A DNA stretch of 16,489 nucleotides from Deltaproteobacteria bacterium. GTDB taxonomy: Bacteria > Desulfobacterota > Desulfobulbia > Desulfobulbales > Desulfobulbaceae. The notes beneath the pieces were generated by a model. It made no database searches. It saw only the letters and a list, made by a program, of their open reading frames with translations, and was not told the origin of the DNA. This document shows positions 7,618-16,489 of this stretch, one piece after another. Numbering within the stretch: the stretch's first letter is position 1; every line of letters starts with the position of its first letter. Where the stretch lies: NCBI GenBank assembly GCA_024277485.1, contig JAJRVA010000248.1, positions 1-16,489 of the forward strand, read 5' to 3'. The translations under genes were made by a program, and so were the position numbers.

Positions 7618-7661
7618 AAAAAAGCGGGACCAATACACCAGGTCAGGTGTTTTGGCCCCGC
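7618..7661 (-). terminator. Rho-independent terminator of the first NrfD/MerR operon
   Basis: On the minus strand a 16-bp stem (GCGGGGCCAAAACACC pairing with GGTGTATTGGTCCCGC, one G-U and one mismatch, 6-nt loop) is followed by TTTTTT. It lies 28 bp beyond the merR stop. On the plus strand the same stem is followed by CGATTTTTC, so it may also work in the other direction. Confidence 0.9.
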
Positions 7662-7688
7662 CGATTTTTCTACCTGTAGTCAGATTTT

Positions 7689-8057
7689 TCAGGCGACATT
7701 CCAGTCAACCCTGTCAATACGTCGGGGCTGGACTTCATTCATCTTTCTTGGCACCAGGCCGTTGCACATGAAGGCGGTACACTCTTTCCGCTTTTCGTAA
7801 GGACAGTCGGAAATATTCCAGCAGGGTGTATACTGCAGCAGCTTCTTGATAGCTGCTATGGAAATACCATGTTCGTGAATCATCTCACGCAGGCACTCGA
7901 CCCACTTCACGTCATTCATCGTGTAGTAGCGCCACTTTCCCTTCCGCATGGGGCGGATAAGCTGTTCCTGCTCATAGATCCGAAGTGTTCTCGGGTGTAC
8001 GTCAAGCATCTGGGCCGCTACGCCTATGGTGAAGATTGCTTTCTTTTCGTTGATCAT
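7689..8057 (-). CDS. MerR family regulator with C-terminal Cys cluster (paralogue 1)
   Basis: This 122-aa regulator has an N-terminal MerR winged-helix domain: FTIGVAAQMLDVHPRTLRIYE at about 9-29, followed by the RYY wing at 43-45 and the KWVECLREMIHEHGISI segment. The HPRTLRIYE recognition helix resembles HspR-like MerR proteins. The C-terminus carries PCWNISDCPYEKRKECTAFMC at about 78-98, with Cys79, 85, 93 and 98 spaced like a metal or Fe-S ligand set; Cys55 is also shared with the paralogue at 14.4-14.8 kb. This suggests a redox- or metal-sensing repressor/activator. The ATG at 8057 has GAGG six bases upstream; earlier ATGs at 8069 and 8129 have poorer sites and overlap an intercistronic hairpin. 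It is last in the operon after nrfD. Confidence 0.9.
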   Translation of the reverse strand: MINEKKAIFTIGVAAQMLDVHPRTLRIYEQEQLIRPMRKGKWRYYTMNDVKWVECLREMIHEHGISIAAIKKLLQYTPCWNISDCPYEKRKECTAFMCNGLVPRKMNEVQPRRIDRVDWNVA

Positions 8058-8081
8058 CTTGAACCTCATTCCTCTTGGGTT

Positions 8082-8106
8082 GCGGGAGGAGACCAGCTCC
8101 TCCCGC
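8082..8106 (-). other. Intercistronic hairpin between nrfD and merR (copy 1)
   Basis: A perfect 10-bp inverted repeat GCGGGAGGAG / CTCCTCCCGC with a 5-nt loop sits between the NrfD stop and the chosen MerR start. No U-run follows it, so it is not a full terminator. It may stabilise the upstream message or reduce read-through or translation of merR. A similar hairpin occupies the same place in the second module. Confidence 0.75.
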
Positions 8107-8132
8107 CTGGTTTGCCTGACCTTGACCACCGG

Positions 8133-9326
8133 TTAATGATCACCGTGAAGAGCGTAGGCGCGTCCAAAAAATCTCTCTCCAAGGATAAACGCCGCGCCAA
8201 CGACTCCGATCCCGGCCATAACAAGCATGACCTCGGCAAGCGACGGAGTATAGCTGAGGGCTGCCGGGAAATTGCTGGTTCCGGAAAAGCCGGGAACTAT
8301 CTGGCCTGCAACAACAGTATTGTATGTCCTGGTGAAGAGTCCAACCAGGGTCATCAAAGAGGCGGCTGACATGGCGGCAACACTCTGCAGGCGCGTGGCA
8401 ACCAGAAGCAGCAGGGGCAGCACCAGGCCAATGGTTATCTCAAAGATCCAGAAGTTCGTGGCCAGGGGACCAGTAAGGAGCGCTTCTGCTGCCATCCGTC
8501 CGCCTTCAGCTCCGCCGACAAAGTAGGAGATAATCCGCCAGGAGCTTGCGACCGTAATCATAACAAGCATCAGGGACAGGACCTTGCCCGCGCACTGCAC
8601 TCCCTCGAAGGTATCATGGTCCATTTTCCTGCGGCGGATGACATAGGCGTAGTGAGTAAACATAATTGCCGCTGCTGCACCGGCCATGAAGGCATTGCCC
8701 AGGAAGTAAATCGGCAGTTGCGAGCCATACCAGAACGGGCGGCCGGACAGGGTTGAGAAAACAGCGCCAAGGTTGGTGTTTGCTGCTACTTCAGCCAGCG
8801 CGCCGATAACGCCCAGGGCAATGGCCAGCTTATACCGCTTGGTAAGAATGAGGAAGAACTCCACGATCATCAGGCCAACGGCCATGCCGTACAGGGTGCC
8901 CATCCACCAGATATTTGAGGTCGGATTCGGGGAGGTGATATTATAGATGGCCATCCGCCATGGACTTTCCAGTTCCATGCCGATCAGGGTAAATCCACCG
9001 ATTATGGTGATCAGGGACAGCCAGACCATCCTGTTGGCCAGGGGGGCCATTTTGTTACCGCCGAAAATGTGGCTGATTGCTGCCAGAACACAGAGGCCGG
9101 TGGAGGTAATTGCAAAAAAAGCGTAACTGGAGATCAGGATCCCCCAGGGCATTTCCCGCGTGTTGTTATATACATTGTGATGTCCTGCATAAAAACCGTA
9201 CAGCCCGGCGCTTAAACCTGCGATGACCAGCAGAGCAAAAAGCACTGTCAGGGTCTTTGTACCTGATGTCGATACTTCCGGTTCAGCTGTGGCTGTGATT
9301 GAAAATCCGTTAATTCCGTTAGCCAT
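8133..9326 (-). CDS. nrfD: NrfD/PsrC-type quinone-interacting membrane subunit (paralogue 1)
   Basis: This 397-aa polytopic membrane protein of the NrfD/PsrC/DsrP/HybB family oxidises or reduces menaquinone in the membrane and passes electrons to a partner iron-sulfur or cytochrome subunit. About ten hydrophobic helices are visible from about 27 to 386. Family-like landmarks are TREMPWG at 56-62, SPNPTSNIWWMGTLYG at 132-147 and NLGAVF at 185-190. The start has AGGAGG seven bases upstream. It lies 46 bp after the reconstructed small membrane ORF and is followed by merR. It aligns without gaps to the NrfD at 14.9-16.1 kb over residues 1-350; I count roughly 40% identity by eye. Its cognate ferredoxin and cytochrome may be those at 10.7-12.2 kb, but this is inferred from proximity. 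Confidence 0.92.
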   Translation of the reverse strand: MANGINGFSITATAEPEVSTSGTKTLTVLFALLVIAGLSAGLYGFYAGHHNVYNNTREMPWGILISSYAFFAITSTGLCVLAAISHIFGGNKMAPLANRMVWLSLITIIGGFTLIGMELESPWRMAIYNITSPNPTSNIWWMGTLYGMAVGLMIVEFFLILTKRYKLAIALGVIGALAEVAANTNLGAVFSTLSGRPFWYGSQLPIYFLGNAFMAGAAAAIMFTHYAYVIRRRKMDHDTFEGVQCAGKVLSLMLVMITVASSWRIISYFVGGAEGGRMAAEALLTGPLATNFWIFEITIGLVLPLLLLVATRLQSVAAMSAASLMTLVGLFTRTYNTVVAGQIVPGFSGTSNFPAALSYTPSLAEVMLVMAGIGVVGAAFILGERFFGRAYALHGDH

Positions 9327-9372
9327 TTTTTTTCCTCCTGGATTGTTGAAGTTGAAAACCAGTTAAATATTG

Positions 9373-9611
9373 TTAAATCCGGCAGCTTGCAGGTTCGACC
9401 ATCTTTTCTCTGTACTCTTTCGAGGCCAGGGCCCACAAACCGTACACAACGGCTATGACTGAAAAGGCCCCATGAGTACAAAGAGGAGAAAGGTGATACC
9501 AAGCCAGATTCCTTCGCTTAAACGCGATATCCTGCCTGACACTCTTTTCATGAAGGAAACATGCTCTCCGCTTCCGTGGTGTCCTGCTGGTGCATGATGT
9601 ATTGCTCTCAT
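9373..9611 (-). CDS. Small single-span membrane protein upstream of nrfD, apparently frameshifted
   Basis: As read, an ORF from ATG 9611 (AAGGAG six bases upstream) ends at TAG 9453-9455. It gives 52 aa: a His-rich N-terminus (MRAIHHAPAGHHGSGEH), a basic stretch, and a hydrophobic segment (IWLGITFLLFVLM) cut off after GPFQS. In the -1 frame from the GGGG run (CCCC at 9468-9471) the membrane helix continues as AFSVIAVVYGLWALASKEYREKM and ends at TAA 9373-9375. One extra G would give a smooth 79-aa protein with a long helix and a charged cytoplasmic-type tail. So this is a frameshifted or programmed-frameshift small subunit, or the site of a sequence error. It is the first gene behind a sigma-54 promoter and may be an accessory subunit of the NrfD complex. 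A longer N-terminus to 9713 is rejected because it covers the promoter. Confidence 0.65.
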
Positions 9612-9668
9612 TGTCGACTCCTTTTGCGTCCTTAATCCGACTGCTTTTTTCTCGTCTGCCCAGTACTT

Positions 9669-9684
9669 CGCAAGGGGCATGCCA
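9669..9684 (-). promoter_or_regulatory. Sigma-54 (-24/-12) promoter of the first NrfD operon
   Basis: The minus strand reads TGGCATGCCCCTTGCG, matching the RpoN consensus TGGCACG-N4-TTGCW with the correct ten bases between GG and GC. Only the C-to-T at one -24 position and the last base differ. The start of transcription would be near 9658, leaving a leader of about 47 nt before the small membrane gene at 9611. An RpoN-dependent activator gene lies in the window at 12497. Confidence 0.75.
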
Positions 9685-9699
9685 AAACAGATGAACACG

Positions 9700-9862
9700 C
9701 GCAAAAAAAGCACGAGAAAAGCCTAACTTCTCAAGGTTACGTTATAAATATTATATACAAGAATGCATTTCCATGTTTTACAGGCAGGCATTCCTGATAG
9801 ATTTTTTCCCGGAATGACGCAAAACGAGCCTTTCTTCAAGAGGGAGTGTGGCTTATTTTGCG
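9700..9862. promoter_or_regulatory. Repeated CGCAAAA-NN-AGC motif upstream of the sigma-54 promoter
   Basis: CGCAAAANNAGC occurs at 9700-9711 (+), 9818-9829 (+) and 9851-9862 (-). The last two form an inverted repeat with 13-nt arms at 9818-9830 and 9850-9862, matching at 11 of 13 positions, with a 19-nt spacer. The pair is centred about 180 bp upstream of the predicted start of transcription, a usual distance for an enhancer-binding protein. A looser CGCAAAA copy overlaps the ribosome binding site (9618-9628, minus), and another lies at 10062-10068 (+). The binding protein is unknown. Confidence 0.45.
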
Positions 9863-10608
9863 CCCACAGGTTGGGTAGCATGGAAAAACTCTTCAGGAGA
9901 CAGGAAACCCATGGAGATTCCCTGTTACTGGTGCTCTTGAGATGACAAAAAAAGAATGACAGGGAGAATTTTCAAGGATACATATGCTCGTGCCGCACTG
10001 GACGCATGACCGGATGCTGGAAAATTTATTCTATAAATTCAAATAAATAGGGCAAAATGGGCGCAAAAAGATCCCTGTTTTTTCCATTTACAGAGCAGAA
10101 TCCTGCATCAGCAGGCCGAACCGGTGAGCAGGTGGGCGCCCCCTGAACCGGCCTCTCCCGGTCCGGAAAGAAAGGGACCTGATACGGTGCCACAGCATGG
10201 TGCCACAGCATGGAGTGTGGTGATATTTCAGCATTTATCTCTGCCGGAAATCCCTGCCTGATTTTACCTGCCTGATAAGTGCGACCGGGCCCGGGGTGGC
10301 AACTGGTTCGAGATGCGCAGATACTGCTCATCATTTCCAGTGAACCGTACATGCAACCTCTTCCCAGGCAAACCTGACATGATGTGTGTCAAAAAAGGAG
10401 GGAAACAATACAGGGAAGACTCCTCGGCATTTCCGCTGTGTAGAATGCTGCAATATATCTGACAATGGAAATATCCAGGTTGCCGGTACAGAGACAGGGG
10501 TGGATTGCAGGACATGAGTGCCCGGAAAAGAGACCGGGCCGACAGGGGCAAAGATCCAAGGCTCAAAGAGTCCGGATTCAATAACGCATGAATGACCGGC
10601 GATGTTTT
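9863..10608. other. Non-coding gap between the first NrfD module and the cytochrome gene
   Basis: I see no convincing gene here. The ORFs available are short, lack ribosome binding sites and read as random sequence. The region contains a two-copy 13-bp tandem repeat GGTGCCACAGCAT at 10186-10211 and GC-rich potential stems around 10112-10160. It ends at a strong plus-strand terminator at 10609-10651. It may hold a plus-strand RNA, long-range regulatory DNA, or the remains of a lost gene. Confidence 0.5.
10186..10211. repeat. 13-bp direct repeat (2 copies)
   Basis: GGTGCCACAGCAT occurs twice in perfect tandem inside the non-coding gap. No function is evident. Confidence 0.85.
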
Positions 10609-10651
10609 CATCCGGCCGGGCAATAGTTGCCCGGCCGGATGAACATTTTTT
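10609..10651 (+). terminator. Strong hairpin terminator, plus strand
   Basis: A perfect 15-bp stem (CATCCGGCCGGGCAA / TTGCCCGGCCGGATG, 3-nt loop, 10609-10641) is followed by AACA and six T at 10646-10651. ATGTT/AACAT can extend the stem past a TT bulge. The T-run is on the plus strand, where no gene ends. On the minus strand the hairpin lies 86 bp beyond the cytochrome stop and lacks a U-run. It probably ends an unrecognised plus-strand transcript and may also slow the cytochrome transcript. Confidence 0.75.
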
Positions 10652-10727
10652 ATACCAAGGGTAGAGTCAAACCTTCCTGAGAATATGCGGAAAAATTATG
10701 ACCGGCCCGAGCCAGAGGCTTCCCTTG

Positions 10728-11438
10728 TCAATGACCTTCTTTCTTCTTTTCACCGTGGCCCAGGAGGCGGTCAAAGCCCATGACACCTATATGACAGGCT
10801 GTGCAGCGCGTATCAGAGGCAAAGGCCTGTTCACCATCATGGCAGACACCGCAGTATTTGCCCTTGTACAGGGATTCCATGACAAATTCATCCGGCTTTG
10901 TCTCCGCATCACCGATATGCATCTTAAAAACATCACTGTGGCAGTTGGTACAGTTAAAACCCATCTCGTCCACATGTATTTTATGATCAAAGATAACGGC
11001 CTTGACAGGCTTGGTGAAGACGATAAGGTCGGGAGCCGTATGGCAGGCGGCGCACTTTTCATAACTGTTGGTGCTGAACGCGGTATCACCGTCATGACAC
11101 GCGCCGCAGTAGCTGCCGCCGGTGAATGACTTCATGTTAAAGTCGCCTTTTTCCACAACCGCTCCGGCTTCCATCTCAAACAGGTCATCATGACACGAAT
11201 CGCATTCGAGCCCGGCATCCATGGTGTGGACCTTGTGGCTGAAGGTAACCCTGGGAACCGGTTCGTTCCAGACCATCATCTTAGCCGGACCATAGGTGTC
11301 CTCGTCATAGTCCTTCGGAATATCGGCCGGCCCGTAGGCAGGTATGTCGGTCGTAGTTGCCATGCCGGCATTAATATACAGGAGGGCCGCACCAGAAAAG
11401 AGTCCGACCATATACAATACTTTTTTACGTAACTTCAT
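10728..11438 (-). CDS. Hexahaem c-type cytochrome with two c7-like trihaem domains
   Basis: This 236-aa exported cytochrome has an uncleaved or N-terminal Sec signal (MKLRKKVLYMVGLFSGAALL) followed by six CxxCH haem sites, at residues 79-83, 111-115, 129-133, 163-167, 196-200 and 212-216. The protein is a tandem duplication of a three-haem c7-type unit. Each unit starts with a SHKVH or DHKIH element (67-71 and 151-155) that can supply distal ligands, continues with a YCGxCHDG site, and ends with a CxACH site. Such proteins carry electrons in the periplasm. The gene follows the ferredoxin gene by 23 bp and has AGAGGA before its ATG, so the two are cotranscribed. It ends in a charged His/Lys tail. 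The redox partner is inferred to be the Tat ferredoxin and an NrfD subunit. Confidence 0.93.
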   Translation of the reverse strand: MKLRKKVLYMVGLFSGAALLYINAGMATTTDIPAYGPADIPKDYDEDTYGPAKMMVWNEPVPRVTFSHKVHTMDAGLECDSCHDDLFEMEAGAVVEKGDFNMKSFTGGSYCGACHDGDTAFSTNSYEKCAACHTAPDLIVFTKPVKAVIFDHKIHVDEMGFNCTNCHSDVFKMHIGDAETKPDEFVMESLYKGKYCGVCHDGEQAFASDTRCTACHIGVMGFDRLLGHGEKKKEGH

Positions 11439-11461
11439 TGCTTTTCTTCCTCTGGCAGGGA

Positions 11462-12226
11462 TTAGTCATTCATGTAAAAAACATTGGGGAGGGCACCTGT
11501 TTCAGGACGCAATACCCAGACAATTTTGTCCTGCTGATGGACCAGCCGGGACACCCTGCTTTTCGGGTCGCTGATATCACCGAAAACCCTCACGTCTGCA
11601 GGACATGCCTCCACACAGGCTGTATCTTTCTTGCCCTTGGTCAGGCGGGTATCATAACAGAAGTTGCATTTATCAACGGCCCTGTTTTCTTCCTTGAAAT
11701 ACCTGGCATTATACGGACAGGCAGCCATACAGGTCTTGCAGCCGATACACTTCTTATAGATCATCATGACAATGCCGGTCTTTTTGTCCTTGTACGTTGC
11801 CCTGGTCGGGCAGACCCGGACACATGGGGGACGGTTGCAGTGGTTGCAGAGAACGGGCATGAAATCCCGCTCAACGCCCTGCAGGTTATCGGGACCGGCC
11901 GGACGATCGACCTCCAGTATTGTTGTTCGATACCCGTACGAGGGGACATGATTGGTTTTGACACATGCCTCCTTGCACCGCTCGCAGTCAATACAACGGT
12001 TCTGCCTGATCACCATCGAATAATGTGGGCTGTAGGGAAACTTTTTTGCCTGCGGCAAACTGCCCAGGGCACCATGGGCTTTCTGCGCCGAGGTCAGAGA
12101 CAGTACCGACCCGCCAAGAAACACCCCGGTTATAGCCAGGCCGGCCCTGAGAAAGGCCCTGCGCTCAGCGGAGGGTATGGTTTCGACACCCTCGTTCTGC
12201 AGCTTTTCAAGATCCTTAAGATTAAT
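11462..12226 (-). CDS. Tat-exported 4x[4Fe-4S] ferredoxin subunit (NrfC/HybA/DmsB type)
   Basis: This protein of about 254 aa has a twin-arginine signal (ERRAFLRAG at about 21-29, then a hydrophobic stretch) and four cysteine groups. These are CIDCERCKEAC, CNHCNRPPCVRVCP, CIGCKTCMAACP and CNFC...CVEACP, the four-cubane pattern of NrfC/PsrB/DsrO/HybA subunits. It would sit on the periplasmic face and wire an NrfD quinone site to the cytochrome encoded next. The only start with a good ribosome binding site (AAGGGAGAG) is an ATT codon at 12226. The conventional alternative is GTG at 12313, which adds 29 hydrophobic, atypical residues, has no ribosome binding site and lies inside a palindrome. 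I prefer the ATT start but this is unproven. The gene is divergent from the sigma-54 activator. Confidence 0.88.
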   Translation of the reverse strand: MNLKDLEKLQNEGVETIPSAERRAFLRAGLAITGVFLGGSVLSLTSAQKAHGALGSLPQAKKFPYSPHYSMVIRQNRCIDCERCKEACVKTNHVPSYGYRTTILEVDRPAGPDNLQGVERDFMPVLCNHCNRPPCVRVCPTRATYKDKKTGIVMMIYKKCIGCKTCMAACPYNARYFKEENRAVDKCNFCYDTRLTKGKKDTACVEACPADVRVFGDISDPKSRVSRLVHQQDKIVWVLRPETGALPNVFYMND

Positions 12227-12302
12227 TACACTCTCCCTTAAATAAAGTAATAAGGCATGTTCAATCCGTACAGTTAAGACCAGCAACCAACACAAACCCC
12301 AG

Positions 12303-12320
12303 TGAATGACCACTCATTCA
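12303..12320. promoter_or_regulatory. Palindrome in the ferredoxin/activator divergent region
   Basis: TGAATGACCACTCATTCA is a perfect inverted repeat with 7-bp arms and a 4-bp centre. It lies just downstream of the predicted start of ferredoxin transcription, where a bound regulator would block or pace transcription. It also covers the GTG that would otherwise be the conventional ferredoxin start. Confidence 0.4.
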
Positions 12321-12335
12321 AGAAGCTTGGAGTTG

Positions 12336-12364
12336 AAGATACCTTAAAACCGTTTTAAATGCAA
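12336..12364 (-). promoter_or_regulatory. Putative promoter of the ferredoxin-cytochrome operon with palindromic spacer
   Basis: On the minus strand TTGCAT (12359-12364) and TATCTT (12336-12341) are separated by 17 bp. The spacer contains the palindrome TTAAAACCGTTTTAA (12344-12358, plus-strand reading). The hexamers are weak, 3 and 4 of 6 to consensus. A dyad placed between -35 and -10 is the position used by MerR-family activators. No sigma-54 element with correct spacing was found here. Confidence 0.35.
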
Positions 12365-12437
12365 GCCTTGAAGTGAATCCAATGAAGTACCACAACGGGC
12401 GAGTTTTGACGGAAAAACACTTCTTTCTCTTTGTGGC

Positions 12438-12466
12438 TTGACCATACATCCCCGGCACGATATGCT
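12438..12466 (+). promoter_or_regulatory. Putative sigma-70 promoter of the sigma-54 activator gene
   Basis: TTGACC (12438-12443, five of six to -35 consensus) is followed by 17 bp and TATGCT (12461-12466). Transcription would start near 12473, 24 bases before the ATG at 12497. Confidence 0.5.
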
Positions 12467-12496
12467 GACGGCAGTTAAACCTCAGAACACAGACTG

Positions 12497-14218
12497 ATGA
12501 ATCCAGCTCACAATATTTCAGCCACCCCGGACCAGGATGCAGTCATGCGTGTTGACCATGCCGGGATAATTCATGCCGTCAACCGGAAAGCCGAAGACAT
12601 AACCGGCCTTACCGCGTCTGAATTAATCGGCCGGCCGGCAAAAGATATTTTCTGCACTCATGCAAAACCGGCCGGCTTTGCCGACCTGTGTGAATCCGCA
12701 AAAGCGGGAAAGGTCATCCGCAGCCATCCCGTACGCCTCTGCAGCGAAACCGGCAACACAGCCAGGTCAATCCTGGCCGACATCCTGCCCCTGCCTGATG
12801 GAAAGAACGGAGCCGGCGGAACTCTTATCTGCTTCAGGGAAGACACCTTTCTCCCCCTGGCGGAAAACATTCTTCAGTCCCTTGGGGACGGGGTGTTTAC
12901 GGTTGACCTCCAGTGGAAAATCACCTCTTTCAACCGGGCAGCTGAGGAGATTACAGGCTGGAGGGCCGATCAGGCCATCGGCCGATCCTGCAGCAAGGTC
13001 TTTCAGGCAAGCACCTGCGGCAAGAACTGCGCCATGGCCGAGAGCCTGTACAGCGGCAGAACCGTTGCAAACAGATCCATCACCATCACGAATACCGAGG
13101 GGCTGAAAATTCCCGTCAGTATCAGCGCCGCACCGCTGGCGGACCGCGAGGGGAACATTACAGGCGGGGTGCAGACGTTCCGTGACCTGAGCATACTGGA
13201 TGCCCGGCGAAAACAGCTGAGCCGGAAACACCGCTTTGACGAGATCGTTTCCAGGAGCAAGGCCATGCAGCGACTTTTCACCATTCTGCCCGAGGTTGCC
13301 GCCAGCCCGAGCAATGTGCTGGTTTCAGGCGAGAGCGGGACCGGCAAGGAACTTATCGCCACCGCCCTGTACAACTTCAGCAGCAGGAATGACAAGCCCT
13401 TTGTCGTTCTGAACTGCGGCGCCCTTCCCGAGAACCTGCTGGAATCAGAACTGTTCGGCTACAAGGCCGGTGCCTTTACCGATGCCAGGAAGGACAAGCC
13501 GGGCCGGTTTGCGGCTGCAGAGGGTGGCACCCTGTTTCTTGATGAAATCGGGGACATCCCGACCAGTGTCCAGGTCAAGCTTCTGCGGGTCCTGCAGGAA
13601 AAGATATATGAACCCCTTGGTTCAAACATACCCGTCAAAACAGATGTGCGAATCATAACCGCCACCAACCATGACCTGAAAACGCTGGTCCGGGAAGGAC
13701 GGTTCCGGGAGGATCTGTACTACCGGCTCAACGTGGTCCGGATCCACCTCCCTCCCCTTCGGGAACGGAAAGAGGACATTCCCCTGCTGATTGAACAGTT
13801 CATCACGGAGTTCAACGCCCGGTTAGGCAAAGATATTGCCGGCATCTCAAGCCCGGCCCTCAACGTGCTCATAAACCACGATTTCCCAGGCAACATCAGG
13901 GAACTGAAAAACATCATCGAATATGCGTTCATCCTGTGCGAGGGAGGATACATCCTCCAGGAACAGCTGCCGGAACCCTTCAACACCGGCGCCGGGCTGA
14001 GGCCCGAAAAAACAGGGGTACCGGTGCAGGCACCCGACCACCGCATGACCCTTGAAGAGATAGAAAAACAGGCTGTCTTTCTTGCCCTGGAAAACAACCG
14101 CTGGAAAAAAGTCGACACCTGCAGAGAACTGGGGATATCAAAAGATACCCTGCGCCGCAAAATGACAAAATATGACCTGCACAGACCAATGGACAAGGAC
14201 ACAGCAGGTAGCAGGTAG
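12497..14218 (+). CDS. Sigma-54-dependent transcriptional activator (PAS-PAS-AAA+-Fis HTH)
   Basis: This 573-aa enhancer-binding protein has two PAS domains (about 12-115 and 120-235), an AAA+ core (about 248-480) and a Fis-type helix-turn-helix (about 520-562). The core has Walker A GESGTGKE at 278-285, the sigma-54 contact loop as GAFTDA at 325-330 (usual form GAFTGA, Thr kept), Walker B GGTLFLDEIGD at 343-353, and the arginine-bearing FREDLYYRLN at 403-412. PAS2 carries CSKVFQASTCGKNC at 165-178, giving Cys165, 174 and 178, which suggests a redox, metal or haem-linked sensor; PAS1 also has several Cys. There is no receiver domain. It is divergent from the ferredoxin-cytochrome operon, and the only good RpoN promoter in the window precedes the first NrfD operon, its likely target. 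The ATG lacks a strong ribosome binding site; Met17 is an alternative. Confidence 0.95.
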   Translation: MNPAHNISATPDQDAVMRVDHAGIIHAVNRKAEDITGLTASELIGRPAKDIFCTHAKPAGFADLCESAKAGKVIRSHPVRLCSETGNTARSILADILPLPDGKNGAGGTLICFREDTFLPLAENILQSLGDGVFTVDLQWKITSFNRAAEEITGWRADQAIGRSCSKVFQASTCGKNCAMAESLYSGRTVANRSITITNTEGLKIPVSISAAPLADREGNITGGVQTFRDLSILDARRKQLSRKHRFDEIVSRSKAMQRLFTILPEVAASPSNVLVSGESGTGKELIATALYNFSSRNDKPFVVLNCGALPENLLESELFGYKAGAFTDARKDKPGRFAAAEGGTLFLDEIGDIPTSVQVKLLRVLQEKIYEPLGSNIPVKTDVRIITATNHDLKTLVREGRFREDLYYRLNVVRIHLPPLRERKEDIPLLIEQFITEFNARLGKDIAGISSPALNVLINHDFPGNIRELKNIIEYAFILCEGGYILQEQLPEPFNTGAGLRPEKTGVPVQAPDHRMTLEEIEKQAVFLALENNRWKKVDTCRELGISKDTLRRKMTKYDLHRPMDKDTAGSR

Positions 14219-14224
14219 GATGAG

Positions 14225-14259
14225 AAAAAAAAGGACACGCGGAAAGAGCGTGTCCTTTT
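14225..14259 (+). terminator. Bidirectional rho-independent terminator
   Basis: GGACACGC / GCGTGTCC (14232-14239 with 14247-14254, 7-nt loop) is flanked by seven A on the left and five T on the right. It gives a U-run on both strands. It ends the activator gene on the plus strand. On the minus strand it can also stop transcription from the second MerR gene, about 125 bp beyond its stop. Confidence 0.92.
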
Positions 14260-14384
14260 TGAAATACGTTTTACATCCGGTCAGTCAGGCAAGGCCCGTA
14301 CCGGTTTTTTCCAGGCTGGTCAGCCGAATGATCGTCGCTCCGCAGCCTGGACCGCAACCGTGGCCCTGCGCTTTCTTTCGATTT

Positions 14385-14831
14385 CTAACCAGATGACTGT
14401 TGCTTTTTTTTTTGCGCTGCCGTCCTCCTTTTCCGGTCCCGGTCAGCCTTCTTGGCCTGCCTGGCAGCTTCCTCATCACCCGCCTTATGCGGCGTGCGGG
14501 GGACAGCCCGGTCTACCTTGGCCTGGCACGGCTCGCACACCTCGGCGGGACAATCGGAAATTTCCCAGCAGGGTGCGAGGTCCAGCAGTTTTTTCAGACC
14601 TGGAATGCTGATTCCCTCATCATGTATAAGAGAACGAAGGCAGCCGATCCACTTGATATCATTGTCGGAAAACAATCTTCGCGTTCCGACATGGGCAGGA
14701 TTGATCAACCCCTCAGCCTCATAGATCCTCAAAGTACGCGGATGAACATTCAGCAGTCTGGCAGCAACACCGATGGGATATACCGGCACATCCGGTCGCA
14801 TCGGCTTTATTTCATGTTTTTTTCTGGCCAT
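14385..14831 (-). CDS. MerR family regulator with C-terminal Cys cluster (paralogue 2)
   Basis: This 148-aa paralogue of the regulator at 7.7-8.1 kb shares the MerR DNA-binding helices (IGVAARLLNVHPRTLRIYE at about 20-38, then the RRLFSDNDIKW wing region and the LIHDEGIS segment). It also shares the cysteine region PCWEISDCPAEVCEPC at 87-102 with Cys88, 94, 99 and 102, plus Cys64. After the cluster it has a long Lys/Arg/Ala-rich tail ending in KKKQQSSG, absent from paralogue 1. Part of that tail is encoded by a run of ten A (T10 at 14404-14413), a possible slippage site. The ATG at 14831 has AGGAG six bases upstream; an in-frame ATG at 14873 would overlap the intercistronic hairpin. It is last in the second NrfD operon. 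Confidence 0.9.
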   Translation of the reverse strand: MARKKHEIKPMRPDVPVYPIGVAARLLNVHPRTLRIYEAEGLINPAHVGTRRLFSDNDIKWIGCLRSLIHDEGISIPGLKKLLDLAPCWEISDCPAEVCEPCQAKVDRAVPRTPHKAGDEEAARQAKKADRDRKRRTAAQKKKQQSSG

Positions 14832-14854
14832 GCTGTACTCCTGTAGGTGGTTGA

Positions 14855-14883
14855 GTCGGGAAGGGCTGTCCACCCCTCCCGAC
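14855..14883 (-). other. Intercistronic hairpin between nrfD and merR (copy 2)
   Basis: In the minus-strand RNA GTCGGGAGGGG pairs with CCCTTCCCGAC (11 bp, one G-U, 7-nt loop), between the NrfD stop and the MerR ribosome binding site. No U-run follows. It is the positional counterpart of the hairpin at 8082-8106 and shares the CGGGAGG core. Confidence 0.7.
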
Positions 14884-14894
14884 CGGGTGCAATC

Positions 14895-16088
14895 TTAATG
14901 GTCCTCTGAAAGATGACCGCGAAACATGCGTTCGCCCATCATGAAGAGGGCCGCACAGAAAGTAAAACCAGCCAACGTTATGATATACTCGTGCAGTGTC
15001 GGCGAGTAGGGTATCAGGTGCGGCATACCCACGATGTTATATTCGTGGAAACCGGGGATAACCTGACCGATAACAACCAGGTCGTAGCGCATGAAGAAAA
15101 TGCCGATGATGCTGGAGGCGGATCCTATGGCCATTGCAGTGATGTTCTTTGCCCTGACAGCCATGATGATAATAAAGGGAATAACAAGTCCCATCGCGAC
15201 TTCCGCAACCCAGAAATTCACAGCATAGGGACCGGTCAGGAAGGACATGATGGCCTCATATTTTCCTGGCGGATGACCGGAAATACCGGAGATAATCTTC
15301 CAGGTGGTGAAAAACATGATAACCACGTACAGCAGCGCACCGAGCTTGGCAACAGTGGAAAGGGAGTTCTGCAGCGCATCACTCATTTTCCAGCCGTTAA
15401 TCTTGTATCCTGCCCAGTGAAAAAAGATGACCGCGGCACAACCGGACATCATGGCAGAGGTGATAAAATAAATCGGCATGTAGGGTCCGTGCCAGAATTC
15501 ACGACCGTTGAGCAGCCCGAAAACAGCGCCTAAATTTGAATGCGCTGCCACACCGGCAATAACGCCGGCCAGGCCGAGGTACCCGGCCTTCTTGTGTTCA
15601 CCCATCTGCAGCAGGGCAAACTCGATAAGCATGAAAAAAAGATAGGCCCCGTAGAGTGTTCCCATCCACCAGATGTTGGAAGTGGGGTTCGGGGATATCA
15701 CATTATAGATAGCCATTCTCCACGGATTCTCGATCTCAAAGGCAATGACCAGAAAACCTGCCACAATCGTGGCAATAGCGAGAAATACGGAACGCTTGGC
15801 AATGGGCTTGAAAGCCTCCACGCCAAAAACATGGCCTATGGAAGAAACAAGACACAGGCCGGTAGAGGTAACAACAAAAAAGACATACGCGGCAAGCATA
15901 AGTCCCCAGGGAAGCTCACGGCTCACACCGTAGGCATGTTCATGGCCGATAAACATGGCATGAACACCGAATGCGACTCCTATGAGCGTAAATAATCCAA
16001 GCAGCGCGATAGTTGCGTTATACGCACCGGATCGTGTACTTTCAAGGCCGCCCTCCTGGGGCAGAACCTTAGCTAATATATTATTCAT
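14895..16088 (-). CDS. nrfD: NrfD/PsrC-type quinone-interacting membrane subunit (paralogue 2)
   Basis: This 397-aa polytopic membrane protein is collinear with the NrfD at 8.1-9.3 kb and has the same length when started at ATG 16088. SRELPWG is at 56-62, SPNPTSNIWWMGTLYG at 132-147 (identical position and sequence in both), NLGAVF at 185-190 and MGERMF near the end. About ten helices are visible. It would exchange electrons with menaquinone for a periplasmic Fe-S or cytochrome partner. A GGAGGTG sequence precedes the ATG at 16088; an upstream ATG at 16142 would add 18 residues but would bury this ribosome binding site. It follows a small membrane ORF and precedes merR, repeating the organisation of the first module. 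No adjacent ferredoxin lies downstream; genes upstream are outside the window. Confidence 0.92.
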   Translation of the reverse strand: MNNILAKVLPQEGGLESTRSGAYNATIALLGLFTLIGVAFGVHAMFIGHEHAYGVSRELPWGLMLAAYVFFVVTSTGLCLVSSIGHVFGVEAFKPIAKRSVFLAIATIVAGFLVIAFEIENPWRMAIYNVISPNPTSNIWWMGTLYGAYLFFMLIEFALLQMGEHKKAGYLGLAGVIAGVAAHSNLGAVFGLLNGREFWHGPYMPIYFITSAMMSGCAAVIFFHWAGYKINGWKMSDALQNSLSTVAKLGALLYVVIMFFTTWKIISGISGHPPGKYEAIMSFLTGPYAVNFWVAEVAMGLVIPFIIIMAVRAKNITAMAIGSASSIIGIFFMRYDLVVIGQVIPGFHEYNIVGMPHLIPYSPTLHEYIITLAGFTFCAALFMMGERMFRGHLSEDH

Positions 16089-16159
16089 GAGCACTACACC
16101 TCCATTTTTTCCTTTACGTCTTAAACTCTGTGATTCAGTCAATTCGTGTGGACTCAGGG

Positions 16160-16276
16160 TCAGGAAAAATCACTTTCTTCCCTATAGGCCTGGACGACCG
16201 GTTTGACCTTGAGGTCAAACAGGGTATGGAGTGCAGCACCACTGAGCCAAAAAACGATAAACACAATACCTTCCAT
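16160..16276 (-). CDS. Small single-span membrane protein upstream of the second nrfD
   Basis: This short ORF (38 aa) has ATG at 16276 with GGAGG eight bases upstream and TGA at 16160-16162, 71 bp before the NrfD start. The product begins MEGIVFIVFWLSGAAL, a single hydrophobic helix, then a basic/charged tail ending AYREESDFS. Position, helix and YRE-containing tail parallel the small protein of the first module, so it is probably an accessory subunit. The frame is open upstream (ESFIQSRQLEDKL) to a TGA but has no standard start. A start at ATG 16328 would join it only if one A of the AAAA run at 16322-16325 were removed. Confidence 0.6.
   Translation of the reverse strand: MEGIVFIVFWLSGAALHTLFDLKVKPVVQAYREESDFS
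16201..16220. promoter_or_regulatory. 20-bp palindrome inside the small membrane ORF
   Basis: GTTTGACCTTGAGGTCAAAC has perfect 9-bp arms and a TG centre. It falls in the sequence encoding LFDLKVKP. It may be an operator or just codon coincidence. Confidence 0.3.
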
Positions 16277-16448
16277 CAGCTTGTCCTCCAGTTGCCTGGA
16301 TTGAATAAAACTCTCAACCGGTTTTCATTGGCGGATGAGCACCGGTCAACCTTCGTACCTGCTTTTTTTTACCTCCTTGTCTCCTTTGATTTTTTCATGT
16401 TGTAACTTGCAAAGTCCCATTTACATTTCTTTTCTCAAACTTATTTCC

Positions 16449-16477
16449 TTTTAACGACAAAAAAATATCATTGTCAA
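16449..16477 (-). promoter_or_regulatory. Putative sigma-70 promoter of the second NrfD operon
   Basis: On the minus strand a perfect TTGACA (16472-16477) is followed by 17 bp and TTAAAA (16449-16454), a poor -10 match. It would give a leader of about 165 nt before the small membrane ORF. No sigma-54 element with correct spacing was seen in 16277-16489, so the two NrfD operons seem to use different promoters. Confidence 0.4.
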
Positions 16478-16489
16478 GAAAAACAGACA

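Follow-up and report, generated by a model that had tools for sequence, protein, structure and literature searches.

A two-NrfD locus of the Desulfobulbales and its possible control by a sigma-54 activator and a kissing-loop small RNA

In the exchange of porins controlled by OmpR, with the small RNAs (sRNAs) MicF and MicC, one regulator raises one porin and an sRNA acts on the other, and the Qrr RNAs of Vibrio are sRNAs that depend on sigma-54. In D. vulgaris an sRNA is the target of a response regulator (PMC3333781), and in cable bacteria a dsrOhPh-tetrahaem locus has been described (PMC13047784). Here we consider a stretch of 16,489 nucleotides from a member of the Desulfobulbaceae (assembly GCA_024277485.1, contig JAJRVA010000248.1), referred to below as the window, in which two modules, each with a small membrane protein (TM), a 397-aa NrfD subunit and a MerR-type regulator, accompany a Tat-exported Fe-S protein (Fd), a hexahaem c7-type cytochrome (Cyt) and an RpoN (sigma-54) activator. 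These components were claimed in a first-pass annotation, and all of them are indeed in the window. The reading that we favour, with confidence barely above even, is that one Fd-cytochrome complex passes from NrfD2 to NrfD1 when the activator fires, together, the NrfD1 unit and an sRNA directed against NrfD2. All the evidence is comparative; the genomes are related and the counts are not independent events.

On the minus strand of the window, read 5′ to 3′, TM2-NrfD2-MerR2 comes first, then Fd-Cyt and TM1-NrfD1-MerR1; the activator, on the plus strand, stands after MerR2. The genes are:

16160..16276, minus strand: TM2, small membrane protein of 38 aa (23 relatives aligned)
14895..16088, minus strand: NrfD2, 397 aa, quinone-binding membrane subunit with E118, R124, S137 and H183 (Pfam, alignment, fold match of a model)
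14385..14831, minus strand: MerR2, MerR-type regulator with a CW-x4-C tail (profile, alignment)
12497..14218, plus strand: sigma-54 activator, 573 aa, PAS-PAS-AAA+-Fis helix-turn-helix (profiles; same position in relatives)
11462..12226, minus strand: Fd, Tat-exported 4x[4Fe-4S] protein, which probably begins at 12226 with the unusual codon ATT (the longest open reading frame reaches 12313)
10728..11438, minus strand: Cyt, hexahaem c7-doublet cytochrome (6 CXXCH; TIGR04257 twice)
9453..9611, minus strand: TM1, small membrane protein of 52 aa, cut short by a frame change
8133..9326, minus strand: NrfD1, 397 aa, with E118, R124, S137, and N183 in place of H183 (Pfam, alignment)
7689..8069, minus strand: MerR1, MerR-type regulator with a CW-x4-C tail (profile, alignment)

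This layout (TM2-NrfD2-MerR2, RpoN activator, Fd-Cyt, TM1-NrfD1-MerR1) is kept among Desulfobulbus relatives. Those with the locus include the cultured species Desulfobulbus elongatus (L012) and D. rhabdoformis (L009). In the 29 loci yielded by one scan of GTDB genomes with NrfD2, MerR2 adjoins NrfD2 in 28 and TM2 precedes it in 23; the second module lies within the same locus in eight, the others ending early or having the module outside. The synteny on which the first-pass annotation had staked its case is thus conserved, and the gene arrangement is not due to chance. Its further statement, that two operons share the same order, holds as regards the order; the two small membrane proteins belong to different, unrelated families, so that order is the only thing common to both modules in this respect. 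Roles were assigned by profile across loci, because greedy calling of open reading frames often chose antisense frames, and copy numbers were taken from relatives of the window organism. TM1 of the window is broken at a T-run (about 9458), the TM1 of relatives being ~30 residues longer; the frame downstream of the T-run resembles, by eye, the rest of their protein, be this a sequencing error or a real loss.

In the mechanism we propose, Fd, Cyt and an NrfD subunit would form one periplasm-facing quinone:cytochrome oxidoreductase, which could take up one or the other of two ancient NrfD paralogues as its membrane part. The TM2-NrfD2-MerR2 operon would be expressed from an ordinary promoter, and the leader of its mRNA would display a CCGCCA hexaloop. 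The activator, encoded between the modules and predicted to be master of the switch, would when active bind tandem sites resembling TGGCGCA-N3-TGCGCCA and fire two sigma-54 promoters, one for TM1-NrfD1-MerR1 and one for an sRNA of ~80 nt divergent from the NrfD2 operon. The terminator loop of this sRNA, UGGCGG, would then kiss the CCGCCA loop of the NrfD2 leader, most likely lowering NrfD2 synthesis, and the Fd-cytochrome pair would thereby swap its membrane subunit. Each locus having one Fd-cytochrome pair, such a switch would amount to an exchange of membrane subunits. In other words, the activator most likely raises NrfD1 and, via the sRNA, acts on NrfD2, for which repression would be the simplest sign. 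The genes and their synteny, the sigma-54-type promoters, the tandem sites, the covarying hairpins and the invariant complementary loops can be read from the sequences; the locus activator as the binder, the pairing of the loops, the direction in which NrfD2 is affected, the exchange of subunits and the signal are what we infer from them.

The first line of evidence is the putative promoter of the NrfD1 unit, which has the GG-N10-GC core, a TGGCAC/TTGC context, a fixed place and candidate activator sites upstream, as would be expected of a sigma-54 promoter:

9669..9684, minus strand: predicted sigma-54 promoter of TM1-NrfD1-MerR1, TGGCATGCCCCTTGCG (sequence, site scoring)
9849..9865, minus strand: predicted activator site 1, GGGCGCAAAATAAGCCA, 181 nt before the -24 element
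9815..9831, minus strand: predicted activator site 2, AGGCTCGTTTTGCGTCA, 147 nt before the -24 element

Sigma-54 sites with a score of at least 26 occur 20-250 nt upstream of 26 of 37 TM1 genes, 5 of 62 NrfD1, none of 42 TM2, none of 62 NrfD2 and 1 of 61 Fd genes, the five before NrfD1 being cases without an annotated TM1 in between; 144 such sites were found in total on both strands of 1.75 Mb of loci. With a score of at least 24, a site within 450 nt upstream of NrfD1 is present in 35 of 48 cases if a MerR with the CW-x4-C tail (MerR-CW) follows, as against 1 of 14 if not, a count that misses sites further upstream (as in L173 and L194). The background in random 80-nt windows was 300 in 20,000 at a score of at least 24, and 44 in 20,000 at 26 or more. 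L173 (G060) itself carries TM1-NrfD1-MerR1 in tandem copies, with equal scores and identical sigma-54 sites.

Upstream of the TM1 promoters there are two palindromes of the type TGGCGCA-N3-TGCGCCA, 31-34 nt apart, at about -180 and -148 from the -24 element, the pair keeping a fixed distance (-168 to -184). They were first noticed in an alignment and then looked for before the promoter of the sRNA, where the same pair is found at about -170/-139 (18 of the 20 best pairs lie at -151 to -171). Tandem pairs scoring above 99% of the null precede 26 of 27 TM1 genes and 14 of 20 sRNAs, but 3 of 40 TM2 genes, 2 of 61 Fd genes and 10 of 108 other sigma-54 sites; the sRNA sample comprises 20 of 23 picks, leaving out L107, L111 and L178 (in the last, no promoter was found). 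Moreover, nine of those ten other sites are promoters of NrfD1 or of the sRNA that had not been annotated as such: on the NrfD1 side the NrfD1 promoters of L137, L180, L186 and L192, the site before TM1 in L101 and those before NrfD1 in L114 and L116, and on the sRNA side those of L173 and L029. The tenth, a sigma-54 site with a tandem pair at L171:13093 (plus strand), stands before neither NrfD1 nor an sRNA.

The NrfD2 unit has elements of another kind, a promoter-like element and a long leader:

16449..16477, minus strand: sigma-70-like promoter of TM2-NrfD2-MerR2, TTGACA-N17-TTAAAA (prediction only)
16371..16378, minus strand: conserved AAGGAGGT(G) element of the TM2 leader (alignment, sequence)
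16314..16349, minus strand: leader hairpin with the hexaloop CCGCCA at 16334-16329 (fold and covariation)
16287..16300, minus strand: second small hairpin, UCCAG-GCAA-CUGGA, by the TM2 Shine-Dalgarno (fold; the stem letters vary in relatives, by eye)

In 14 aligned leaders of TM2-NrfD2-MerR2 the CCGCCA core is invariant, and TTGACA is kept in 11 of the 14, the window included. The hairpin of the window, folded with short flanks, reaches -14.8 kcal/mol. In an alignment of 27 sequences all five inner pairs change on both sides, 91.9% of cells are paired, and the covariation score was reached by none of 500 shuffles. The rows (25 of 29 automatic picks, plus L009 and another place in L176 added by hand, L101, L102, L179 and the automatic place in L176 being left out) were picked by CCGCCA with at least two flanking pairs, or three for the two hand-added rows, so that selection bears in part on the innermost pairs and not on the outer ones. 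The idea that CCGCCA belongs to a short leader peptide (Pro-Pro codons) was rejected: judged by eye, the sequences have neither a start codon nor a length in common, and their flanks co-vary as a stem.

On the opposite strand of the relatives, in most of them about 550-650 nt before TM2, lies an intrinsic terminator whose loop, UGGCGG, is the exact complement of the leader loop. Only 26 terminators with this loop occur in the 1.75 Mb of loci, and 23 of them are divergent upstream of NrfD2; of these, 20 have, at the distance expected, a sigma-54 site with a score of at least 24, which had played no part in their selection. The predicted product is an sRNA of ~80 nt divergent from NrfD2. Of its base pairs 14 of 19 show changes on both sides (six pairs near the loop having been selected by the picking of rows), 93.6% of cells are paired, and none of 500 shuffles attained the covariation score; the alignment kept 19 of the 23 picks, leaving out L102 (misaligned), L107 and L111 (whose loops belong to NrfD1 leaders) and L178 (for its lack of a promoter). 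In the relatives only, then, this element appears to have what a trans-acting sRNA would need: its own promoter, an intrinsic terminator, a conserved structure and complementarity to a target. Rfam 15 gave no match at gathering level in the window and, in six relatives, two group II introns and one tRNA, none of them at the sRNA or the leader; permissive Rfam searches yielded nothing credible.

A covariance model of the sRNA gave 36 matches in 34 of the 146 genomes of the order, 28 of them, each in another genome, lying 764-1103 nt from NrfD2 and divergent from it. In G122 the match is near the end of a contig and NrfD2 starts another contig; the remaining matches are off-site or weak. Among 395 genomes of the phylum 12 have matches, of which four are below 1e-6, all in genomes with NrfD2 that are in the sample of the order, the next being at 1.8e-4. 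In 30 sRNA loci that come from whole genomes, some of which also figure in the earlier sets, a sigma-54 site with a score of at least 22 is present in 27, UGGCGG in 28, and a tandem pair above 17 in 21, two of these 21 lacking the sigma-54 site. One of the two loci without UGGCGG is the weak match in G137; the other, an exception that speaks for the proposed switch, is G045 (L214), which has NrfD1 and no NrfD2, and where, in this one case, the sRNA homologue (E 3.3e-8) has the loop CCGUGG, keeps its sigma-54 site and lacks the tandem sites.

How the loops are distributed can be seen without reference to the model. In a scan of all hexaloops closed by at least four Watson-Crick pairs, without wobble, TGGCGG is the commonest before NrfD1 (18 of 62, the next having 2) and CCGCCA before NrfD2 (18 of 54, the next having 4); the top loops before Fd (3 of 60) and MerR (6 of 111) are others. 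If wobble pairs are allowed, UGGCGG hairpins precede 22 of 61 NrfD1 genes and CCGCCA hairpins none. UGGCGG is found in the sRNA and in the NrfD1 messages of several lineages, and CCGCCA in NrfD2 messages. The isolated loop pair is worth -9.9 kcal/mol, a value that none of 2000 random pairs of hexamers reached, and 112 of 2000 perfectly complementary random hexamers did. It is from this exact complementarity, and from which paralogue carries which loop, that the pairing is proposed. In L007, L008, L009, L012, L028 and L176 the UGGCGG hairpin seems, by eye, to be within the first codons of TM1 (Asn-Asp-Gly-Gly), in which case coding and RNA constraints would overlap there.

The hairpins might nevertheless bind proteins or other RNAs and not each other, their complementarity being secondary. 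Invariant loops on variable stems are typical of protein-binding hairpins too, and there is no loop-loop covariation to appeal to. Against this, the two commonest hexaloops of a blind scan turn out to be exact reverse complements, and they are split by paralogue, one before NrfD1 and never its complement, the other before NrfD2; we regard separate binding partners as decidedly unlikely.

Several further points weigh against the proposed switch. The sRNA lies beyond the end of the window, which holds the leader hairpin and the NrfD1 control region, so that for the window organism it is a prediction from the nearest relatives, L001 and L013; the NrfD1 messages of the window and its nearest kin are without the UGGCGG hairpin. 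Under strict filters, and with contig ends as a further limit, the model places the sRNA next to NrfD2 in no more than 28 of the 60 genomes that have NrfD2; by the terminator test, 28 of the 51 NrfD2 genes with at least 1 kb upstream have no UGGCGG terminator, the model adding L019, L029 and L173 among them. Six of the 20 sRNA upstreams fail the tandem-site null. In both hairpins the inner pairs owe their presence in part to the choice of rows, and both loops are all but invariant, so that covariation between them cannot be seen. In G302, G349, G391 and G502, NrfD1, MerR and NrfD2 are co-directional in one cluster, all with a sigma-54 site (score 25-26) before NrfD1, an arrangement that fits joint use equally well. 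Finally, in the three loci where the distance was taken (L003, L012 and L013), ftsH follows the end of the sRNA on the same strand after a gap of about 160-240 nt, for which reason the sRNA could be a leader of ftsH.

According to this last alternative, the supposed sRNA would be an attenuated 5′ leader of ftsH driven by sigma-54, its loop regulating ftsH or being a mere terminator, and in 15 of 18 long loci an open reading frame of one and the same cluster, which in L003 has the domains of FtsH, does stand downstream of it in the same orientation. However, the terminator is strong, and its invariant loop is complementary to the leader of the neighbouring NrfD2 and recurs before 22 of 61 NrfD1 genes; a loop that was not needed would be expected to drift, for which G045 may be compared. 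We consider such a leader improbable.

Returning to the exchange of subunits, the two NrfDs share 42% identity over 384 aligned columns (E 5e-110), and both are above the gathering score of Pfam PF03916 (92.9 and 115 bits, cut-off 25.8). E118 and S137, which align with the acid and the serine of DsrP, are invariant in 63 of 63 NrfD1 and 59 of 59 NrfD2 rows. A quinone-site serine and an acid of transmembrane helix 2 were singled out in DsrP by Calisto and Pereira (PMC8076601), and both NrfD classes look quinone-competent. The differences between them are also fixed, H183 in NrfD2 (59/59) and N183 in NrfD1 (63/63), with G179 versus E179 and E197 versus P197. A tree of 117 rows (of 121 unique linked NrfD-MerR pairs) splits the two classes fully, partly by construction, because the labels had been assigned with profiles of these very proteins. 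Among the 146 genomes of the order 53 have both NrfDs, 31 NrfD1 only, 7 NrfD2 only and 55 neither (NrfD1 in 84, NrfD2 in 60; at the presence threshold of E <= 1e-150 split or remote copies are missed). With 31 and 7 genomes holding one class, neither NrfD seems strictly to depend on the other, allowing that genomes may be incomplete.

It is here that an arrangement like that of alternative complex III (ACIII) has to be considered, in which NrfD1 and NrfD2 would be parts of a single complex, like ActC and ActF, the separate promoters tuning only their stoichiometry. Both NrfDs occur in 53 of the 91 genomes with any, there are contiguous clusters with both (L113-L116, L174, L184), and a model of NrfD2, of moderate quality (mean predicted local distance difference test, pLDDT, 66) and used for the fold match only, matches ACIII subunit C first, F next and then PsrC. 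A sequence-profile search against structures found for NrfD2 only ACIII subunit C of 6f0k, and for NrfD1 no match. On the other hand, 38 of the 91 genomes have a single class at the threshold used, the two operons have different control elements, and the quinone serine and acid, reportedly absent from ActF (PMC8076601), are present in NrfD1 and NrfD2 alike. A heteromer is unlikely in our estimation, with some chance of being right. The clusters L113-L116 (G302, G349, G502 and G391) have, all co-directional, a tetrahaem cytochrome, Fd, a triheme Cyt, the activator, NrfD1, a single MerR and NrfD2.

As for Fd and Cyt, their partnership with NrfD is attested by plain Fd-Cyt-NrfD1 runs in nine loci from genomes without MerR-CW (L156-L164) and by NrfD2-Fd-Cyt runs in L018 and L175. 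The idea of an NrfD divorced from its Fe-S partner, put forward in the first-pass annotation, was therefore mistaken. Cyt has its six CXXCH in two c7-type triheme domains, with TIGR04257 above cut-off over two stretches; Fd is NrfC/DsrO-like, under the cut-offs of both models, and its codon 12226-12224 is ATT where relatives have ATG, a rare start or a sequencing error. A third set of control elements stands before this pair:

12336..12364, minus strand: predicted sigma-70-like promoter of Fd-Cyt, TTGCAT-N17-TATCTT (sequence, alignment)
12303..12320, minus strand: palindrome TGAATGA-N4-TCATTCA, candidate Fd-Cyt operator (perfect in the window, in loosened form in relatives)

The palindrome sits just downstream of the promoter and resembles operators of the TetR type, such as FadR boxes; among 61 Fd upstreams AATGA-N4-TCATT occurs 10 times and AATGA-N8-TCATT 14 times. 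The three transcription units of the locus thus appear to have three kinds of control.

The MerR proteins had been given the role of choosing between the subunits. MerR1 and MerR2 share 55% identity over 97 columns, and each directly follows its NrfD; their tail, described as having four cysteines, has only three that are invariant across 11 MerR1 and MerR2 rows (C88, C94 and C102). With 65.5 and 62.6 of 105 bits they are below the NCBIfam cut-off for HspR, an identity that was rejected. MerR-CW is present in 76 of 146 genomes of the order and 67 of 395 of the phylum; in 12 whole genomes there are two copies in nine, four in one, one in one and none in one. It occurs in 53 of 53 genomes with both NrfDs, 10 of 31 with NrfD1 only, 7 of 7 with NrfD2 only and 6 of 55 with neither. 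MerR-CW thus tracks the two-NrfD state (53/53 versus 10/31, Fisher p 1.4e-12), which implies that the MerRs matter in some way. In a tree of 140 rows, with few columns and long branches, and independent of the NrfD profile labels, all 51 partners of NrfD1 fall in one set together with one unlinked MerR, the partners of NrfD2 require 3 changes, and the unlinked MerRs are nearer to the MerR1 side. The pairs of MerR and NrfD are thus old and faithful; a joint duplication of MerR and NrfD, for which the first-pass annotation had proposed trees, is not established, since MerRs unlinked to NrfD fall on the MerR1 side.

Whether these Cys-tailed proteins sense the redox state and choose the NrfD subunit is another matter. 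MerR-CW is directly 3′ of NrfD in 161 of 191 matches (from redundant loci), and its fidelity and its distribution would speak for such a role. A search for dyads with arms of 5-7 nt upstream of TM1, TM2 and Fd found none common to most TM1 or TM2 sequences, and so no shared MerR operator before them; the only dyads before TM2 belong to small clades (TTTAT-N6-ATAAA in 7 of 42, six of them the leader hairpin, and TCCGG-N4-CCGGA in 5 of 42). In addition, 23 MerR relatives are unlinked despite room upstream, and strong alternative control elements were found, the control mapping to the sigma-54 promoter, the tandem sites, the leader hairpin and the sRNA. Choice by MerR is, in our judgement, highly improbable. 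Of the original proposal, one complex with interchangeable membrane subunits survives, by virtue of the conserved synteny, the faithful MerR partners and the quinone residues in both NrfDs; their selection by redox-sensing MerR proteins does not find support. No reading was drawn from the predicted structure of MerR2 (mean pLDDT 70, tail residues 100-111 below 50).

Cys-tailed MerRs are also found beside NapC/NirT-like cytochromes with five CXXCH in L104 and L138, and beside five-CXXCH cytochromes in L118 and L119, and the family may control several respiratory enzymes. In L134 (G529) a MerR-CW precedes an Fe-S protein and an NrfD, both distant, possibly an independent pairing of MerR and NrfD in another lineage. 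A group II intron lies between the cytochrome and TM1 at L177:11627-13631. The remaining genes of the window look ordinary: a fused ATP sulfurylase/APS kinase (checked by profile) and, named from their translations, an inositol monophosphatase-like protein, EamA, PyrF, ComEA and two nucleotide-sugar enzymes.

Among the known respiratory complexes, DsrMKJOP likewise combines a Tat Fe-S protein with an NrfD subunit and a c-type cytochrome. Membership of DsrOP was rejected, with 45.7 of 350 bits to DsrP for NrfD2 (NrfD1 not being listed) and 178.5 of 200 to DsrO for the Fe-S protein; since a DsrP above cut-off is encoded elsewhere in 11 of 12 relatives, and NrfD2 reaches only about 46 of 350 bits, NrfD2 is not DsrP. 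Three relatives have a second DsrP match above cut-off. The dsrOhPh locus of cable bacteria (PMC13047784) is alike in being a separate cluster of Fe-S protein, NrfD and cytochrome with a small membrane protein, in the Desulfobulbales; there, however, the NrfD clusters near DsrP and the partner is a tetrahaem, whereas here we find about 46 bits to DsrP, a hexahaem partner, two NrfDs, MerRs and an sRNA. The DsrP scores, being low, tend to argue against an identity with DsrPh. Hmc and Nhc also join a cytochrome, an Fe-S protein and a subunit of the NrfD family, and among NCBIfam models HmcC fits both NrfDs best, yet these are far under its cut-off (44.1 and 54.6 of 550 bits), so that membership of Hmc was rejected, and the cytochrome here is small. 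ACIII is alike in having two subunits of the NrfD family and in the match of fold; it differs in that the Fe-S protein here, of 255-283 aa, has no room for the large part of ActB. Nor is there a second NrfD devoid of the quinone residues, as ActF would be, both NrfDs retaining them, and the analogy with ActC and ActF was retained as a rival reading without being adopted.

Searches of the open-access literature found nothing on this locus or on such a switch, nor on a respiratory complex that exchanges its quinone-binding membrane subunit under the control of an RNA. Tentatively, and with rather less than even confidence, the locus could be seen as a respiratory "gear shift", in which a sigma-54 activator fires an alternative quinone-binding subunit together with a kissing-loop sRNA against the standing one. 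Both paralogues would have evolved messages with complementary hexaloops, in such a way that making one lowers the other and the coupling of the one cytochrome complex to the quinone pool changes. If this were true, it would offer a simple genetic handle on what NrfD subunits differ in, be it proton coupling, direction or quinone, given two paralogues with a single partner pair in common and with fixed differences between them (H183 versus N183, for example), as well as a compact case of two paralogous messages with complementary loops.

The regulation proposed is closest to systems of other bacteria. Qrr and the sRNA of D. vulgaris (PMC3333781; likened by description) are small RNAs driven by a regulator, as would be the case here, where the sRNA is tied to a neighbouring paralogue and has no match in Rfam. 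With OmpR, MicF and MicC the locus would share the principle that, of two alternative membrane proteins, the first is raised by a regulator and the second is acted on by an sRNA; it would differ in that the regulator is a sigma-54 activator, the proteins are quinone-binding respiratory subunits, the contact is one of hexaloop with hexaloop, and the complementary loop occurs also in some of the NrfD1 messages.

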